IMG/VR virus record: IMGVR_UViG_3300044733_001686
Coordinates: 1-27,154 of that record
Strand: one strand, 5' to 3'
Source: a virus
DNA: 27,154 nucleotides
The notes under the pieces were generated by a model. That model had not been told where the DNA came from and made no database searches. It worked only from the letters and a program-made list of their open reading frames with translations. The translations under genes were made by a program, and so were the position numbers. This document shows positions 13,488-27,123 of the stretch, piece by piece. Positions within the stretch are counted from its first letter, which is position 1. Every line of letters begins with the position of its first letter.

Positions 13488-13772
13488 TTATTTGTCCGTT
13501 GTTAAAATTTGCCACGTATCTGCCCAGTCTGCTTTAGTTTTGTGATTATTAAATTCTCTAGATATTTTACCATCTTCAAGGTATACACCACCCCAAACTC
13601 CCCACTCTTTACCAGATACGCCGTTAGCAAAACATTTTCTTGCTAATGGACACTGCATGCACAAGGCATCAACTAAAAATCTAGAATCTGGCTCATCTTC
13701 ATATTTATCAAAAAAGATATTAGTATCAAGGTCTTTGCACGGAGCATCGTCTTTCCATAGATGCTGCTTCAT
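13488..13772 (-). CDS. whiB: WhiB-like Fe-S transcription regulator
   Basis: 94 residues. Four cluster-binding cysteines in the diagnostic spacing: Cys12, then Cys38-x2-Cys41-x5-Cys47 (ALCMQCPLARKC), and the GVWGG turn at 58-62. WhiB proteins are limited to actinobacteria and their phages and bind sigma factor region 4 through the [4Fe-4S] cluster and the GVWGG turn. The phage copy probably redirects host sigma or blocks superinfection, as shown for the mycobacteriophage TM4 WhiB in earlier work. The C-terminal basic tail normally used for DNA contact is short. AAGGAG precedes the ATG. Confidence 0.95.
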   Translation of the reverse strand: MKQHLWKDDAPCKDLDTNIFFDKYEDEPDSRFLVDALCMQCPLARKCFANGVSGKEWGVWGGVYLEDGKISREFNNHKTKADWADTWQILTTDK

Positions 13773-17178: not shown

Positions 17179-17381
17179 TATTTTCTCCCCCATTTAATTT
17201 TATTCCAACCACGCTCATGGAAGTAATAAAGAATTGTTTTTGTTAATACCTCAAAACTTGCAATTGCTCCTGCTGTAACTGGCTCTTTGGTTATAACCCA
17301 TGAAATAACAAAAGTATCTGCTGTTCCAATTATACGCCAGGTAATTGCTTTTAATGCTGATCTTTGTTTTGTTACGTTCAA
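17178..17381 (-). CDS. DUF2061 membrane protein
   Basis: 67 residues: RSALKAITWRIIGTADTFVI then AGAIASFEVLTKTILYYFHE and RGWNKIKWG, the full DUF2061 signature. Two membrane helices. In bacteria such proteins often accompany sulfate-activation genes; here it is next to the kinase/nucleotidyltransferase with APS-kinase look, an intriguing parallel. TTG start overlapping the upstream stop (TTGA). Confidence 0.85.
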   Translation of the reverse strand: MNVTKQRSALKAITWRIIGTADTFVISWVITKEPVTAGAIASFEVLTKTILYYFHERGWNKIKWGRK

Positions 17382-18139
17382 ATTCCTAGTTCCTTACGCT
17401 TTTGTGTAGCAGAAATAGAATGAATGTCTGCGCCCAAATCTACTTGTTCAATTTTATATCCTACATCACGACCATAAACAATGTTAGTAATGTTAGGTAA
17501 TCTTAGTACTAATGCCCCATCCATAAATTCATCCTTGGCAATATATTCTTTTACCTGATCAAACTTAAGTGGATCTTTCTCACTTGTGTTGTAGGTGTTG
17601 CGTACTCCAAGAAGCACTTGGTCAGTTCTATTGCCAGCCTCTTTATAAAGGGCGTGGTGGCCTTCGTGCCAAGGCTGGTACCTACCTAGCATAAGGGTTG
17701 TAGGTGCAGACCAATCGTGCAGTCTAAACTTTTCAATGATACGAGATGCCTTTTGTTCAGGTTCTAATTCGTGATTAGTGAAATAGAAATCAGCAACTTC
17801 TGGACGCTCAAACATTTTATTTGTATCTTCAAAACGACCCTCAGCGATTGTGTCCATAAAGATAAGAATATCTGGTTTACCAAATGCTGCACGAGTTAAG
17901 TCAGTAGGACAAACAAAATCTACAATTACTGGAGCAACACCCTGTTTAGAGATAAGCCTTGCCATCTCTCCCATACGACGGGCCTGCTCAATTCTATCAT
18001 CAGGACTAAATCCTAAATCTGAATTGACTGTTGCACGAACCTCATCTGCATTAAGATGGATAGCATTGATGCGCTCTTTAAGAGCCTTTGCTAATTCTGT
18101 TTTGCCAGAACCAGGAAGACCCATAATCTGAATAATCAT
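17378..18139 (-). CDS. Kinase-nucleotidylyltransferase fusion (APS-kinase/adenylyltransferase-like)
   Basis: 253 residues. The N-terminal half is a P-loop kinase with GLPGSGKT at 7-14, LNADEVR (29-35) and a VIVDFVCPTDLTR strand (71-83), the layout of adenylylsulfate kinase (CysC). The C-terminal half has GRYQPWHEGHHAL with HEGH at 158-161, the nucleotidylyltransferase HxGH motif, and a late ISATQKR (242-248), like the ISxTxxR of ATP sulfurylase and NMN adenylyltransferases. It may activate sulfate (PAPS) or work on NAD-type substrates. Neighbour DUF2061 favours the sulfate idea. Confidence 0.85.
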   Translation of the reverse strand: MIIQIMGLPGSGKTELAKALKERINAIHLNADEVRATVNSDLGFSPDDRIEQARRMGEMARLISKQGVAPVIVDFVCPTDLTRAAFGKPDILIFMDTIAEGRFEDTNKMFERPEVADFYFTNHELEPEQKASRIIEKFRLHDWSAPTTLMLGRYQPWHEGHHALYKEAGNRTDQVLLGVRNTYNTSEKDPLKFDQVKEYIAKDEFMDGALVLRLPNITNIVYGRDVGYKIEQVDLGADIHSISATQKRKELGI

Positions 18140-21022: not shown

Positions 21023-21826
21023 CTACTTATTAACTGGAACAACCTTGTCTAAAAGATTTCCAGTTGATAGCCATTGTGCAGCAACTGCTACGGTAGCAGA
21101 TGATGTTGTTTGTGGGATTAGCCCAAAAACATTTGAGGTGTAACTTACAACTTCAGATGAAGCAAAGTAATCAGTGTTAATGTCAAATGCGTTAACGCTA
21201 ACAATATTGCCTTGTGAGTTTCTTCCACCAGTGCTAACAGAAACTGTGTCTGTAATGCATGCTGGATAGTCAACCTTTGCACCCATCTTGTTACCAGTTG
21301 AAACAAATACTGGAATACCCTTTGAGTTTAGCGTAGAAATCAAAGTGCGAATAGTATTGTCTGCTCCACGAACTCCACCATATGGCGCAGTGTTGACGGC
21401 TGCTGGAGAGCATGCCTTGTTTCCATTAAAGTATCGTGAGAGTGAAACTGCTCCAACTTTTGAGGAGTTTGCGTTTACCCAGTTTAGAGCATCAATAAAA
21501 TTTCCAGCATTTACTGGATTAACTGTTTTTGACGATGGGGTTGTTGCTCTCAACAAAATAATTGATAGCGATTGATTTTGCTTCTTGGCAACTTCAGCCA
21601 TAGCATTTCCATGATTAATCTCACTTGAAAGTGAGGAAGTTTGTGTTGTTACAACATCTGTACATGTTGTATTTGCAAGTGTAATACAAGTTACATCTGC
21701 ATTGTATACCTTTGAATCAAAGTATGAATCAATGATTACTAAAGCCTTTGGAGTTGCTGCTTGTGAAGGCATTAGAAACATTGTTGAAAAGATTACTGCT
21801 ACGAACCCTACTGCTATTTTTTTCAT
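21023..21826 (-). CDS. Secreted subtilisin-like serine protease
   Basis: 267 residues from ATG 21826 with AAGGAG upstream; a longer in-frame start at 21865 would not begin with a signal peptide. The signal peptide MKKIAVGFVAVIFSTMFLMP-SQA ends near 23. Catalytic triad of the S8 family: Asp33 (VIIDSYFD), His72 (EINHGNAMA) and Ser242 (TTSSATVAVAA, in place of GTSxA), with oxyanion Asn in STGNKMG. No propeptide is visible and the mature domain is small. Known in prokaryotes for degrading envelope or competitor proteins; for a phage it could strip host surface proteins. Confidence 0.85.
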   Translation of the reverse strand: MKKIAVGFVAVIFSTMFLMPSQAATPKALVIIDSYFDSKVYNADVTCITLANTTCTDVVTTQTSSLSSEINHGNAMAEVAKKQNQSLSIILLRATTPSSKTVNPVNAGNFIDALNWVNANSSKVGAVSLSRYFNGNKACSPAAVNTAPYGGVRGADNTIRTLISTLNSKGIPVFVSTGNKMGAKVDYPACITDTVSVSTGGRNSQGNIVSVNAFDINTDYFASSEVVSYTSNVFGLIPQTTSSATVAVAAQWLSTGNLLDKVVPVNK

Positions 21827-22032: not shown

Positions 22033-22061
22033 AGTATACCCCTAAACACTTACTACGTCAA
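22033..22061 (-). promoter_or_regulatory. Leaderless promoter TTGACG-17-TATACT
   Basis: Minus strand: TTGACG (22056-22061), 17-nt spacer, TATACT (22033-22038), 6 nt to ATG 22026. The -35 is inside the 3' end of the proteasome-like gene. Confidence 0.7.
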
Positions 22062-22572
22062 CTGGACCCATACAAGATGGATTAAATTTAATTGCTGCTG
22101 ATACCGCTGAAATTACACGATTTCTTGCATTTTTCTGCTTATCTGTTGCGTACAAAACCCCATAAGCATATTCTGCACCAGACCCCATTGCAAGGTATGG
22201 AAGTGTGTATTTAGATAAAGACATATCTGCAGAACTGTGTTCATAGATTTGACCACGGATACAGATAATCAAACCAAGATCTCCGTCTTTGGAAGTGTCT
22301 ACCCAGAAATCATTATAAAATTCTTTAAGTTCTTTAATAAATTTGGTTTGCATAAACTTATCTGTATCTTTAACTGTTGGAGCAGTCGGATGAAAGTTGT
22401 ATCTAATTCTTTCGCCATCCATTGATCCTGCATACCCAATAAGGTATGGGCCAGACTTCCAAACCTTTGGTGCATCAAGTGCTAGAATAGTACCATCATC
22501 TGAAGCACCACGATCACCAGCCATAAAGATCTTATTGTTTATTTCATCACGAACGACTGCAATACAAGTCAT
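22042..22572 (-). CDS. Proteasome beta/HslV-like Ntn hydrolase
   Basis: 176 residues. Met then Thr2, which becomes the N-terminal nucleophile after removal of Met; MAGDRGASDD (Asp20, equivalent of proteasomal Asp17) and ALDAPKVWKSG (Lys36, equivalent of Lys33), and the AMGSGAEYAYGVL turn near 132-144, all match 20S proteasome beta/HslV/Anbu peptidases. C-terminal PVDVVSV completes the fold. No propeptide. No ATPase partner is seen nearby; it might use host Mpa/ARC or self-assemble. Preceded by a strong promoter with a palindrome in the spacer and GGGAGGGG as ribosome site. Confidence 0.85.
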   Translation of the reverse strand: MTCIAVVRDEINNKIFMAGDRGASDDGTILALDAPKVWKSGPYLIGYAGSMDGERIRYNFHPTAPTVKDTDKFMQTKFIKELKEFYNDFWVDTSKDGDLGLIICIRGQIYEHSSADMSLSKYTLPYLAMGSGAEYAYGVLYATDKQKNARNRVISAVSAAIKFNPSCMGPVDVVSV

Positions 22573-22602
22573 GCAGAAACCCCTCCCAAAGCGATATATT
22601 TA

Positions 22603-22631
22603 AGTATACCACCCCTAGGAGGGGCTGTCAA
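22603..22631 (-). promoter_or_regulatory. Strong promoter with palindromic spacer
   Basis: Minus strand: TTGACA (22626-22631), 17-nt spacer, extended TGG and TATACT (22603-22608). A perfect dyad CCCCT-AGG-AGGGG (22612-22624) fills the spacer, a candidate operator. Leader of about 25 nt. Confidence 0.75.
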
Positions 22632-22651: not shown

Positions 22652-22951
22652 TTATACTGTCTTTGATTTTGATCTGCGTTTTTCAACTGCTTCATCCTGC
22701 ACAGTTTTTGCATTCTTGTCTGTGGTGGAAAATGCTGCATTAATCTCATCTCTTGTGAGTCTACCGTCATCCATAAATGCACGAGCCAACTTCTCAACAA
22801 CTACTGCTACTGCGCTAAGGCCTGCAACTGTCATTGCTTTTGCTACTGAGATTCCTGCAATTGCTCCTGCACCAATAACTGCAAGGGCATTTGCTGCAAA
22901 GACTGCAACAATACGCATCAATATATTCCAAATATTTGTAATACTGTTCAT
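22652..22951 (-). CDS. Small two-helix membrane protein with EF-hand-like loop
   Basis: 99 residues. Membrane segments about 8-30 and 34-52 (VIGAGAIAGISVAKAMTVAG), then FMDDGRLTRDEINAAFS, half of a calcium-type loop (D-x-D-G-x-L-x3-E), and a basic tail EKRRSKSKTV. The layout resembles holin-like proteins of aquatic phages that carry a similar DGxLxxDE segment; unproven. GAGGAG precedes the ATG. Confidence 0.6.
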   Translation of the reverse strand: MNSITNIWNILMRIVAVFAANALAVIGAGAIAGISVAKAMTVAGLSAVAVVVEKLARAFMDDGRLTRDEINAAFSTTDKNAKTVQDEAVEKRRSKSKTV

Positions 22952-22953
22952 GT

Positions 22954-23133
22954 TTACTCCTCTCTATTTCTAATAGGACTAGTTATAATCCAAAGTGCTA
23001 ATGTAGCCATGATTCCATAGCCAACTATTGTTTTTGCACTACCATCTAATACAACCCAGGCAATAAACATTCCAAGAAGAGTCCATGCCTGATCTACTAG
23101 GTCTTTCATTATATTTTTTATTACTCTTACCAT
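22954..23133 (-). CDS. 59-residue two-helix membrane protein
   Basis: MVRVIKNIMKDLVDQAWTLL then GMFIAWVVLDGSAKTIVGYG and IMATLALWIITSPIRNREE. Two membrane helices, a basic N-terminus and an acidic end. From memory, similar small proteins in actinophages sit near lysis or large secreted genes. Together with the 99-residue gene it could form a two-component holin. Strong GAGGAGG ribosome site. ATG overlaps the PA14 gene stop by 7 nt. Confidence 0.65.
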   Translation of the reverse strand: MVRVIKNIMKDLVDQAWTLLGMFIAWVVLDGSAKTIVGYGIMATLALWIITSPIRNREE

Positions 23134-25304
23134 TTTCTTCCTCCTCTTGAACCTGGTGAATTGCTGCCTGAGCCTCCACCAGAACTTCCTCCACCACCAG
23201 AGCCTCCTGCTGCTCCTCCTGCTGCAACTGCTGCTGCGTTAATCGCTGCTCCTGTTGCTACTACTGTAGCCACAACCATGTCTGTTGCTTCTTCTCTTTC
23301 TTCTTCAGTCATATCTGCACCGATACTTCCAAAGGCTGCTAAGGCTGCTCCTGGATCAGTGAAAACTGCTTCTAACAGTGCCCCTGGATCTTGAACCAAT
23401 TCTACATTTGCAGCAACCTCTGCTGTAATAATTAATGCATTTCCATTTTCATCTGTACGAATTTCAATTGGTGTCTCTGCTGGAAGATCTGCATAAGATA
23501 CTCCAGATGCCTGAACTTCTGCTGCAGAAATAGATTCTCCTGGCTTAAGATTTTCTATCAATGCTGCCACTACAATTTCTGTTTGTTCTTCAGTTAATTC
23601 TTTTCCGTCTTTAGCATCTGCAATTATTTCTTTTAATTCTTCTTCTTCTGCTTTTGCTTCTTCTTCAGCAGTCTTTTCTTCTTCTAATTCTTTTGCCTCT
23701 GCTTCTTCCGCAATTCTTTCTTCTTCTGCAAGTGCCTCAGCCTCTGCCTTTGCCTTTGCTTCTGCGATAGCCTCTTCTTCTGCTGCTATACGCTCAGCCT
23801 CTGCCTTTGCTTCTTCTGCAAGTCTTTCTTCTTCCGCTATGCGCTCTGCCTCTATGCGTTCAGCCTCTGCCTTTGCTTCTGCTTCTGCTTTTTCTTCTGC
23901 TTCTTTAAGTTCTGCTGCAATGCGATCTGCTTCTTCTTGGGCTTCTATCTCTGCTTGAATTCTTGCTGCTTCAATCTCTGCTGCTTCACGGTCAGCCTTT
24001 TCTTTTAGTTCCAATTCTGCTTTAATTCTTTCTGCTTCTTGTGCTGCTTGAAGTGCTGCAATTCTTTCAGCCTCTGCTTGGGCTGCTGCTGCTTGGGCTG
24101 CAATCAATGCTGCTGTTTCTGCCTGTATTCTTGCTGCTTCTGCTTGCTGTGCTGCTGCTTGTGCTGCAGTTGTTGCAGCAATTTCTGCTTCAGTTGGCCC
24201 AGTTGGTATTGTCACAGTTGTTGTTTCACTAGGCGCAGGCGTTGTTACAGTTGTTGTTTCTGTAGGAGTTGTAACCGTTGTAGTTTCGCTGGGTGTTGTT
24301 ACAGTTGTTGTTTCGGGTGTTGGTGTTGGAATAGGTGATGGCTCTGGTGTAGGCGTTGTTGCAGTTGATGTTTCAGATGTTACAGTTGATGTTTCGCTAG
24401 GTGTAGGTTCTGGTGTAGGTGTAGGTTCTGGAGCAGGGGCTACATATGTAGAACCAGTAACAACATTTGAATTTGCAGAGTAAAGGGAGAAGGTATCGTT
24501 ATCTGATCTAATATGAAATGACCATACTGTTCCTGCTGGCATAAGACCATCTAGCAAGGAATGGTCAATTGTAATTGTTGTATTTAAAGAATTTGGTCCG
24601 CCAACATTTCCAGTAGCAATTCCCCAGCCATTGCACCCAGTACAATTAAAACTAATTGCATATCTTTCTGGTTGTGTGTTACCAGTGTCGGGTGCTTCCC
24701 AGTTTAATATTGTTGAGGTTTCTCCACTAATAATAGTTAAATTTCTTGGAGGTCCTATTGTTTTTACTACTGGTGCTGATTGTGAAGTAAATGCTGATGC
24801 TGGAATAATATCCATAGATCCAGACTGATCCCAATGAAGGAATACATTTGCTCCCCCGCCATTTTCATAATACATTAATTCTATTGTTTTTGGAACACCT
24901 GCTGTAAATGATATTGGGTCACTAATAGTACCTCCACCGCCTTTATCACGCCAGTCATCTGCTACTAAGACTCCATCAATATACAGTCTTGTTCCATCGT
25001 CTGCTGTTGCTAAAAACGATATTTCTTGAGTAGAATCACTTCTAATTGACCCTGTAAAGCGCACAATAACATCCTCTGAAGGGCCACCTAAGACACTCCC
25101 AGAACCCCACTGAAAGTCAATGTTGGGTACATTAGTAGTGACGACTGGAGAGGCTCCCTGGGGTATGTAGGGAGAACCATTTTGTCCTAGTACATTATAG
25201 ACCTGAGCAGTTAAACCTTCTGCTGCGTGGGCTTTATCAATTATTAAAAGCAGGGGAAATAGAGCAAGGGATAATACCAATGCTACTCTCAATAACTTTT
25301 TAAT
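23127..25304 (-). CDS. Secreted PA14/FN3/coiled-coil surface protein
   Basis: 725 residues from a proposed ATT start at 25304 (TTG 25292 gives 721). Signal peptide to about 27 (KKLLRVALVLSLALFPLLLI...AHA). PA14 domain about 28-170 (SFLATADDGTRLYIDGVLVA is its core), fibronectin type III about 182-285, a Pro/Thr/Ser linker with ETTTVTTP repeats about 290-370, then some 200 residues of Ala/Glu-rich helix, a folded end and a Gly/Ser tail SGGGGSSGGGSGSNSPGSRG. PA14 binds carbohydrates. Such modular proteins occur at the surface of actinobacteria; a phage copy may mask or bind the host envelope. TGATATAAT promoter and AAGGAG upstream. Confidence 0.75.
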   Translation of the reverse strand: MKKLLRVALVLSLALFPLLLIIDKAHAAEGLTAQVYNVLGQNGSPYIPQGASPVVTTNVPNIDFQWGSGSVLGGPSEDVIVRFTGSIRSDSTQEISFLATADDGTRLYIDGVLVADDWRDKGGGGTISDPISFTAGVPKTIELMYYENGGGANVFLHWDQSGSMDIIPASAFTSQSAPVVKTIGPPRNLTIISGETSTILNWEAPDTGNTQPERYAISFNCTGCNGWGIATGNVGGPNSLNTTITIDHSLLDGLMPAGTVWSFHIRSDNDTFSLYSANSNVVTGSTYVAPAPEPTPTPEPTPSETSTVTSETSTATTPTPEPSPIPTPTPETTTVTTPSETTTVTTPTETTTVTTPAPSETTTVTIPTGPTEAEIAATTAAQAAAQQAEAARIQAETAALIAAQAAAAQAEAERIAALQAAQEAERIKAELELKEKADREAAEIEAARIQAEIEAQEEADRIAAELKEAEEKAEAEAKAEAERIEAERIAEEERLAEEAKAEAERIAAEEEAIAEAKAKAEAEALAEEERIAEEAEAKELEEEKTAEEEAKAEEEELKEIIADAKDGKELTEEQTEIVVAALIENLKPGESISAAEVQASGVSYADLPAETPIEIRTDENGNALIITAEVAANVELVQDPGALLEAVFTDPGAALAAFGSIGADMTEEEREEATDMVVATVVATGAAINAAAVAAGGAAGGSGGGGSSGGGSGSNSPGSRGGRKW

Positions 25305-25416: not shown

Positions 25417-27123
25417 TTAAGCCTTAACCTTTTTTTGGATCTTTACGACCAAAGCGGTTAGTGCTGTGATTTGCTTCTTAAGTGAAGCAATTAGTGCAGA
25501 TACATCTGCAGACAACTTAGCAACTGCATCAACTGCAGCCTGTGCCTGTACTGTAGCAGCATCTGCAGCCTTTGAAGCAGCAATCGCTGCATCTGTAGCA
25601 GCCTGGGCTGCCTTTGCTGCCTCTTCAGAAGCCTTTGTAGCAGCCTTTGTTGCTGCGTTAGAAACTTCTGCTGATGCTGTTACTACAACCTGTCCAGCAA
25701 GTGGAAGTGAAGTTCCACCTGTTGCTGAGATCTTAACAACGTTTTCAGCCAAAGGCATAAATACCTTGTATGACTTAGCAGTTGATGTATCTGTTGTAAC
25801 TGATGTTGCAGTTAGTACATCAGATGATGATCCAAATGCATAGTTAGGAACAATTCCACCTGTAGCAAATAGGTTAGCGTGTGTCTTTCCAGATACTGGA
25901 AGACCTGCTGCATCAAGAACCTGAACTGTGATAGTTGCTGCTTCTCCTGGAAGATAAACTTCCTTATCAAATGACAACTTAACAGTTGCTGCAGTTCCCT
26001 CTACACGAGTAGAAACTGGAGCAGATGATACTGTACCTGACTTAACAGTTACAGCGACTCCGCCTGTCTTGACTCCTGTAAGAGTGAACACTGCTTCACC
26101 ATTTACGATTGTTGCTGCAGTTCCTGAATCGGATACCACTGAAACATCGCTTGAGAAAGCATTGAGTGTTCCTGCTCCAACTGTTACTCCAGCAGCATCA
26201 TATGCCACTGCCTTAATTGTTGAAGCATTTGATCCTGTTGCAATAACAGGCTTGACTGCTGTTGCTACGATAGATGCAATATCTCCGTAGAATGTTACCT
26301 TCTCAGTTGCAAGAACTGCACCTGTAAGGGTTGTAAGAGTAATTGTTGATACTCCTGCTGTACCGTCAGCAAATACACCAATGTAATTTCCTGTTGGAAT
26401 AACTACTGAGCGACCAAGAGCAGTCATAGTTGTAGCATTTGTGCCATAACCAATCATACCTGTTCCTGAAACTGTTGCAAGAATTGACTCAGTTGCTGCT
26501 CCGCCTGCTGCATTCTTAGGTGTAACAACGATTACCGCTGCTGCATCTGCTGAAGTAGCCTTTGGTGCATAAACTGTGGCATCTGCTGTTGCAGTTGTTA
26601 CTTCGCCAGAGTTAAGAATTGATGTTGTTGTTGCTGCAGAAGGTGTAACATCTGCTGCTTTAACTGTTACTGTCCACGCAACTGATGGACCTGTTGCTGG
26701 ACGAGTTGTAAGAATACGTGCTTCGTATGTACCCGCAACTGTTGGTGCTACCAATGAAACTGTAAACTTTGCAGTTACATATCCTGGTGTTCCAACTGTT
26801 GAGTTAACATCTGCTGAAAGGCTTCCTGCTGCAATTGTAACTACAGAGGTTGTTGTTTCAAGCAATGAGAGTGTTGCACTCTTTGATGAGCCTGATGGCT
26901 GTGCAAAAATAGCAGATAGCACCGTTGCTGTGTCTGCTGCTGTTTCTGAAATAAATGACAATGTTACTACTGCTGTAGCAGTCTCACCTGCAGTGATTGT
27001 ATCTGTAGCAGAGTCAATCGTTAGTGCTGGTGCAATTACAGCAGCACTTGTCGGAAGTGCTGACATAACGCCAAAGGACATTGCTGCAGCGAGTCCTAGG
27101 GCAATTTTCTTAAATGAATTCAT
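25417..27123 (-). CDS. Secreted S-layer-like alanine/threonine/valine-rich protein
   Basis: 568 residues. Signal peptide MNSFKKIALGLAAAMSFGVM...SAA (to about 28), then several Ig-like/beta-sandwich repeats rich in Ala, Thr, Val (for example SFDKEVYLPGEAATITVQVL near 385) and a C-terminal helical segment of about 80 residues full of AATKA/AAKAA, ending ITALTALVVKIQKKVKA. This ending and the overall composition are, to my memory, typical of the abundant putative surface-layer proteins of Nanopelagicales. In a phage it may be a host-derived surface mimic or fibre. AAGGAG precedes the ATG. Whether it is virion-bound or secreted is not known. Confidence 0.75.
   Translation of the reverse strand: MNSFKKIALGLAAAMSFGVMSALPTSAAVIAPALTIDSATDTITAGETATAVVTLSFISETAADTATVLSAIFAQPSGSSKSATLSLLETTTSVVTIAAGSLSADVNSTVGTPGYVTAKFTVSLVAPTVAGTYEARILTTRPATGPSVAWTVTVKAADVTPSAATTTSILNSGEVTTATADATVYAPKATSADAAAVIVVTPKNAAGGAATESILATVSGTGMIGYGTNATTMTALGRSVVIPTGNYIGVFADGTAGVSTITLTTLTGAVLATEKVTFYGDIASIVATAVKPVIATGSNASTIKAVAYDAAGVTVGAGTLNAFSSDVSVVSDSGTAATIVNGEAVFTLTGVKTGGVAVTVKSGTVSSAPVSTRVEGTAATVKLSFDKEVYLPGEAATITVQVLDAAGLPVSGKTHANLFATGGIVPNYAFGSSSDVLTATSVTTDTSTAKSYKVFMPLAENVVKISATGGTSLPLAGQVVVTASAEVSNAATKAATKASEEAAKAAQAATDAAIAASKAADAATVQAQAAVDAVAKLSADVSALIASLKKQITALTALVVKIQKKVKA

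Follow-up and report, generated by a model that had tools for sequence, protein, structure and literature searches.

What does a phage do with a single gene for a proteasome-like peptidase, and how does it decide when to make the product? This question is raised by the window, i.e. the whole stretch of DNA analysed here (27,154 nt, positions 1 to 27,154 of IMG/VR record IMGVR_UViG_3300044733_001686; Table 1). An earlier note on this DNA had recognised the peptidase, a strong promoter in front of it and an actinobacterial phage as the carrier. The latter is borne out by the virus record itself and by a gene for a WhiB-like protein, a family restricted to Actinobacteria and their phages (PMC6802176). 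The note had overlooked that the peptidase family is already known and widespread, and that the promoter is embedded in a hairpin predicted to sequester the Shine-Dalgarno sequence. This arrangement, in which the gene's own promoter sits inside an RNA hairpin predicted to silence the gene on read-through mRNA, as happens with the T4 lysozyme gene, is less ordinary than the peptidase itself.

Table 1. Coordinates of the features discussed in the text (positions in the window).
Feature	Coordinates	Strand	Remarks
WhiB-like protein	13488..13772	minus	marker of actinobacterial host
APS-kinase-like P-loop domain fused to cytidylyltransferase-like domain	17378..18139	minus	
Secreted protein beside the peptidase	21023..21820	minus	subtilase-like by eye (D, H, N, S motifs); no Pfam hit
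Small acidic ORF, 63 aa	21835..22026	minus	directly downstream of the peptidase; in 80/80 close loci
Proteasome-like Ntn hydrolase (peptidase), 176 aa	22042..22572	minus	Thr2, Asp20, Lys36, G130-S131-G132; from family, fold and alignment
Leader hairpin (predicted)	22578..22626	minus	5' arm in the -35/-10 spacer, 3' arm = Shine-Dalgarno GGGAGGGG; covarying
Sigma-70-like promoter, TTGACA-N17-TATACT	22603..22631	minus	kept in 74/77 close relatives
Small membrane (holin-like) protein	22652..22951	minus	directly upstream of the peptidase; PHROG 26427 label 'nuclease'
Large protein adjoining the lysis region	23127..25292	minus	apparent signal peptide, Ala/Glu-rich stretches
Large protein adjoining the lysis region	25417..27123	minus	apparent signal peptide, Ala/Glu-rich stretches

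The peptidase ORF starts with ATG and its product begins with MTCIAVV. Thr2, Asp20, Lys36 and a GSG turn had been singled out in the earlier note, and all are present, the three residues where it placed them: with Met counted as 1, these align with Thr1, Asp17 and Lys33, the catalytic residues of HslV and BPH. Of 82 aligned sequences, among them BPH and the HslV of E. coli, 80 have Thr at position 2 and the other two have Ser; Asp20 and Lys36 are invariant (82/82) and, in the turn, G130 is invariant and G132 nearly so. As Thr is residue 2, the peptidase has no propeptide. At two of the related loci (L199 and L226), the predicted nucleophile is Ser and not Thr, as in some BPH subfamilies.

At the profile level, residues 1-175 are matched by PHROG 1040, 'peptidase HslV family' (E 9.4e-21), a family already known from many phages. 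Pfam PF00227 (Proteasome) reaches 14.5 bits against the single sequence, below its gathering cut-off of 22.4, and gives no match above threshold in the whole-record Pfam search; the cut-offs of the HslV equivalog TIGR03692 (14.4 bits, cut-off 157.75) and of the bacterial 20S beta equivalog TIGR03690 (12.4 bits, cut-off 191.9) are not reached either. When a profile of the relatives is run against the PDB, HslV (1e-15) and BPH (6e-13) are matched, as are 20S beta chains; the single sequence matches BPH with an E of 0.06.

The AlphaFold2 model, a prediction of the monomer from an alignment of 69 phage sequences, has a pLDDT of 94.4 and a pTM of 0.90. Its strands and helices follow the HslV order, with helices H1 at residues 53-59, H2 at 70-88, H3 at 133-142 and H4 at 149-163. 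All the structural matches listed are proteasome-like and, in the Foldseek and VIA-align ranking, BPH comes first (Z 20.4) and HslV second (Z 20.3), both over residues 2-176, with M. tuberculosis PrcB next (Z 19.0). Residue 2 of the model is aligned with residue 1 of the chain at the start of the BPH and HslV matches. The features of the superfamily of proteasome-like Ntn hydrolases, i.e. a Thr or Ser at the mature N-terminus, equivalents of Asp17 and Lys33, and the Ntn fold, are all present. Judging from sequence and model, the gene product is a genuine N-terminal-threonine hydrolase, and its residues, profile matches and predicted fold agree with the earlier note in pointing to an apparently active enzyme of the proteasome-beta/HslV type. 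Fold and residues suggest that this Thr1-type Ntn peptidase is catalytically competent: once Met1 has been removed, Thr2 would supply the base through its free amino group and the nucleophile through its hydroxyl, with the assistance of Asp20 and Lys36.

Among the 22 new proteasome homologs reported by Fuchs, Alva and Lupas (2021) are PPH and AAH (PMC8665760). PPH is found in phages, is about 140 aa long and is devoid of helix H2 (PMC8665760). The window protein is likewise phage-borne with a Thr/Asp/Lys active site, but it is not a PPH, because H2 is present (residues 70-88) and its length is 176 aa; the protein of locus L145 (155 aa, no H2 segment in the alignment) is, from its sequence, probably a PPH-type example. 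The published description of AAH suits the window protein, which has a compact, HslV-like group I fold with H1-H4, a phage and actinobacterial distribution, and a relative in the Streptomyces plasmid protein P0002. AAH occurs in many phages, and no Actinobacteria-specific phage with AAH was found in the 2021 study (PMC8665760), whereas the window-type gene is present in many WhiB-encoding phages; its occurrence in actinophages fills the gap stated by these authors. Judged against the published description, the window protein is best filed as AAH-like, in group I and on the HslV/BPH branch.

BPH (PDB 5ovs/5ovt/5ovu), the top structural match, has no known unfoldase and a Thr or Ser nucleophile, but its identity to the window protein is ~19%, and it is a tetradecamer with a long acidic loop at the pore. 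HslV (ClpQ) is similar to the window protein in fold, catalytic residues and size, but HslU was not found in the contigs related to the window, and the TIGR03692 score is far under its cut-off. The position of HslV and BPH in the tree is unusable, because their branches are very long.

In one scan of viral contigs, at least 592 loci encode relatives, the best 80 of which are 87-100% identical, and a profile scan yields a further 80 diverse loci. The median dN/dS of the 174-aa members is 0.046 over 1218 pairs (median dS 0.77); as judged from these sequences, the gene is under purifying selection and is strongly conserved. Cellular genomes searched with the window protein give one spurious weak match only. 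Twenty-five isolate phages match the window protein directly, and 160 match the plasmid-encoded relative from Streptomyces; many of the latter phages infect Salmonella or E. coli and are of T5-like size, with annotations such as 'proteasome subunit-like', 'threonine-type endopeptidase' and 'peptidase HslV family'; relatives are also found in Vibrio phages.

In the tree, the window clade joins L218, L206, L210 and L211 (support 97/97), and a different clade (99/91) holds the Planktophila phages E7 and F5, the bootstrap of both groupings being not settled. In the window clade, 13 of 14 contigs encode WhiB, as do the larger ones of the E7/F5 clade and of L209, L213, L215, L219, L220, L223 and L176. 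WhiB-bearing actinophages thus carry the peptidase gene in at least two lineages, one of them with E7 and F5. The latter (OX376640/OX376641, PMC10202952) are cultivated freshwater actinophages with a peptidase relative (~31% identity), but this belongs to the other clade and their genomes are of 39 kb. Phage proteasome-like proteins are common and conserved, and the window family occurs in an abundant freshwater virus group. In the literature found, no function is reported for any of them; it is now testable, because relatives are available in laboratory phages of the T5-like type and in a phage-host pair in culture (E7/F5 on Planktophila LanE-43).

Many Actinobacteria have 20S proteasomes, and the earlier note had proposed that the phage subunit replaces or poisons the beta subunits of its host. 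A protein mixing into, capping or poisoning the host 20S proteasome would be in agreement with the actinobacterial host indicated by WhiB and with the presence of M. tuberculosis PrcB among the structural matches. The fold nevertheless resembles PrcB (Z 19.0 and below) slightly less than it does BPH and HslV, which are homo-oligomeric (Z about 20), the sequence match to bacterial PrcB is local and weak only, and the propeptide is absent. Moreover, the catalytic residues are fully conserved although a poison subunit would not need them, and the family has relatives in phages of Salmonella, E. coli and Vibrio, hosts for which no 20S proteasome is known. Nothing was found in the literature on a 20S proteasome in Nanopelagicales. 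The proposal finds no support in these results, and we consider it very improbable.

The other suggestion of the earlier note, that the phage subunits form their own chamber, is plausible in view of the compact, HslV/BPH-like fold of the model. The single-gene character of the peptidase also stands, with one copy per phage record: the PHROG 1040 profile, which need not detect alpha subunits, finds one in each of the 14 phages of the window clade. Two tandem 'peptidase HslV family' genes, possibly encoding a hetero-oligomer, are present at L095 (2501..3897) and L090 (Aeromonas phages 4L372XY and 2L372X).

An ATPase gene elsewhere in the phage, for which the earlier note had proposed to look, did not turn up: no dedicated AAA+ partner of the HslU/ClpX type was found in ~1 Mb of related contigs, no AAA_2 domain in the 14 phages of the window clade, the records of which are partly fragments, and ClpB_D2-small in 0/5 of the close relatives tested and in 2/50 overall. 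The single AAA-like match in the window is the P-loop kinase of Table 1. As many contigs are incomplete, an unrecognised partner could exist. Since none was found in the phage, any unfoldase partner would have to be the host's, and the phage peptidase could pair with an AAA+ unfoldase of the host, much as HslV pairs with HslU, and so draw host unfolding to itself. The HslV-like fold would suit such a partnership, as would the lack of a partner found in the phage. On the other hand, no AAA+ partner was seen to co-occur with such homologs in the survey of Fuchs et al. (2021), whose Table 1 leaves Actinobacteria unmarked for HslV (PMC8665760), and none was found for BPH (PMC5777263). We regard this partnership as unlikely.

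The protein could alternatively be a specific processing enzyme or a connectase-like ligase acting on one or a few phage proteins. Connectase, a member of the proteasome-like superfamily, is a precedent for a homolog that works as a monomer and as a ligase (PMC8665760), and the authors of the BPH study propose a specialised substrate spectrum for their enzyme (PMC5777263). Yet the two-helix insertion that connectase has after the early strands is absent from the model, and a prohead-protease role is ruled out, because a separate S78 prohead protease is encoded in five large close relatives; we find such a dedicated processing or ligase activity quite improbable.

We somewhat favour a peptidase of HslV/BPH-like type that assembles by itself, has no ATPase of its own and is made during a single phase of infection. 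The closest homolog with a solved structure, BPH, is a tetradecamer without an unfoldase; its Thr1 binds epoxomicin, and it failed to replace missing host proteases in tests (PMC5777263). The phage subunits would assemble into a homo-oligomeric double ring able to cut substrates that are small or unfolded, with no need for an ATPase supplied by the phage, host unfoldases perhaps helping. Its purpose could be to degrade host or surplus phage protein in one infection phase, premature activity being avoided.

As to the expression of the gene, the promoter counted by the earlier note among the strongest of the window holds as a consensus match. It scores 11/12, which is the third best in the 14.5 kb scanned, it is kept in nearly all close relatives (Table 1), and the window has 4 occurrences of the strict promoter pattern, where 0.1 would be expected. 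E7-type loci differ, with this promoter within 150 nt upstream of the gene in 0/47. The -35/-10 spacer of the window promoter is complementary to the Shine-Dalgarno sequence, GGGAGGGG, and a transcript started upstream is therefore predicted to fold into a hairpin of 49 nt (MFE -33.7, z -3.5), which the short transcript does not form. The computed probability that the Shine-Dalgarno sequence is unpaired is 0.06 with the 5' arm (long leader) and 0.54 without it (short leader), and such a behaviour is seen at the peptidase start only, among the ~41 gene starts of the window.

Leaders are likewise occluded in 32/51 distinct relatives, compared to 10/249 controls. Among the folds computed alongside that of the window hairpin, those of L302 and L293, for which the stretches folded lacked the 5' arm, were left out. 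The mean complementarity of the arms is 6.3 within loci and 5.2 between loci, a difference reached in 0/2000 permutations, a test that sequence relatedness inflates. Across the hairpins of the relatives, some pairs are changed on both sides in a compensatory manner, and G-U pairs are kept.

These observations are reminiscent of the leaders of T4 genes e, soc, 49 and I-TevI, in which a hairpin on read-through mRNA masks the ribosome-binding site; gene e also has promoters whose mRNA lacks the 5' strand of that hairpin (PMC3014915). The window leader differs from those of T4 in that it has a sigma-70-type and not a T4 late promoter, precedes a slot for the peptidase and the small ORF, and is known from sequence. 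By analogy with gene e, the sequence, its covariation and its predicted folding point to a timed expression switch. On mRNA read through from upstream, the hairpin would hide the Shine-Dalgarno sequence, and the peptidase gene should be silent; on mRNA from the promoter inside the hairpin, the 5' arm would be missing and the peptidase could be translated. The slot product is probably unwanted on early read-through mRNA, and the embedded-promoter hairpin is a first clue to its regulation.

As far as regulation is concerned, the hairpin might instead act mainly as a terminator or a DNA operator. Its GC-rich stem is followed by UUU(U) and might act as a weak terminator, and there is a dyad around the -10 element. 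However, the T-run is of 3-4 only and the hairpin is absent from the terminator-scan list, the wobble pairs and compensatory changes point to pairing in RNA, and the 3' arm coincides with the Shine-Dalgarno sequence. A principal role as terminator or operator is thus doubtful.

The translational switch may not be devoted to the peptidase. The small acidic ORF, which has the motif GW(I/V)..PFC.THDG...M.EEE..EWEDGGDPC and is widespread in actinophages, follows the peptidase gene in other peptidase lineages too (about 20 loci), and is found without a peptidase nearby in 55/76 loci, which rules it out as an obligate peptidase partner. A Pup-like partner was also considered and rejected, as neither Pfam nor PHROG gives a match to the ORF and, by reading, there is no terminal GGQ/GGE. 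At six loci, the gene before it encodes an M78-like metallopeptidase and not the Ntn peptidase. The holin-like gene borders the slot whether or not an actinophage carries the peptidase, and many peptidase-less loci have a promoter-hairpin leader immediately 5' of the small ORF, after a related membrane-protein gene; at L009, the first place behind the leader is occupied by a gene read as spermidine-synthase-like. As the leader also precedes other first genes, it belongs to a cargo slot, of which the peptidase is one possible cargo and, as the hairpin also precedes small ORFs at loci devoid of the Ntn gene, the small ORF may benefit from the timing no less than the peptidase. One tentative view, which we put forward with little confidence, is that of a 'timed proteolysis' slot of freshwater actinophages, in which the hairpin-embedded promoter would silence the self-assembling peptidase, or elsewhere the small acidic protein, until it fires, the small ORF encoding an adaptor, a substrate or an inhibitor.

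Some other neighbours of the peptidase gene may be mentioned. At L223 and L168, it abuts a thioredoxin gene and lies near a gene for a GroES-like protein (L223) or Hsp20 (L168), a context that hints, for some phages only, at a neighbourhood of proteostasis genes. Hsp20 is encoded near the peptidase gene in much of the window clade as well as at L168; a chaperone operon was rejected, as Hsp20 is found in only 9/50 relatives and at up to tens of kilobases. Finally, one of the two large proteins adjoining the lysis region has a PA14 domain, and such proteins are unusual for a phage.
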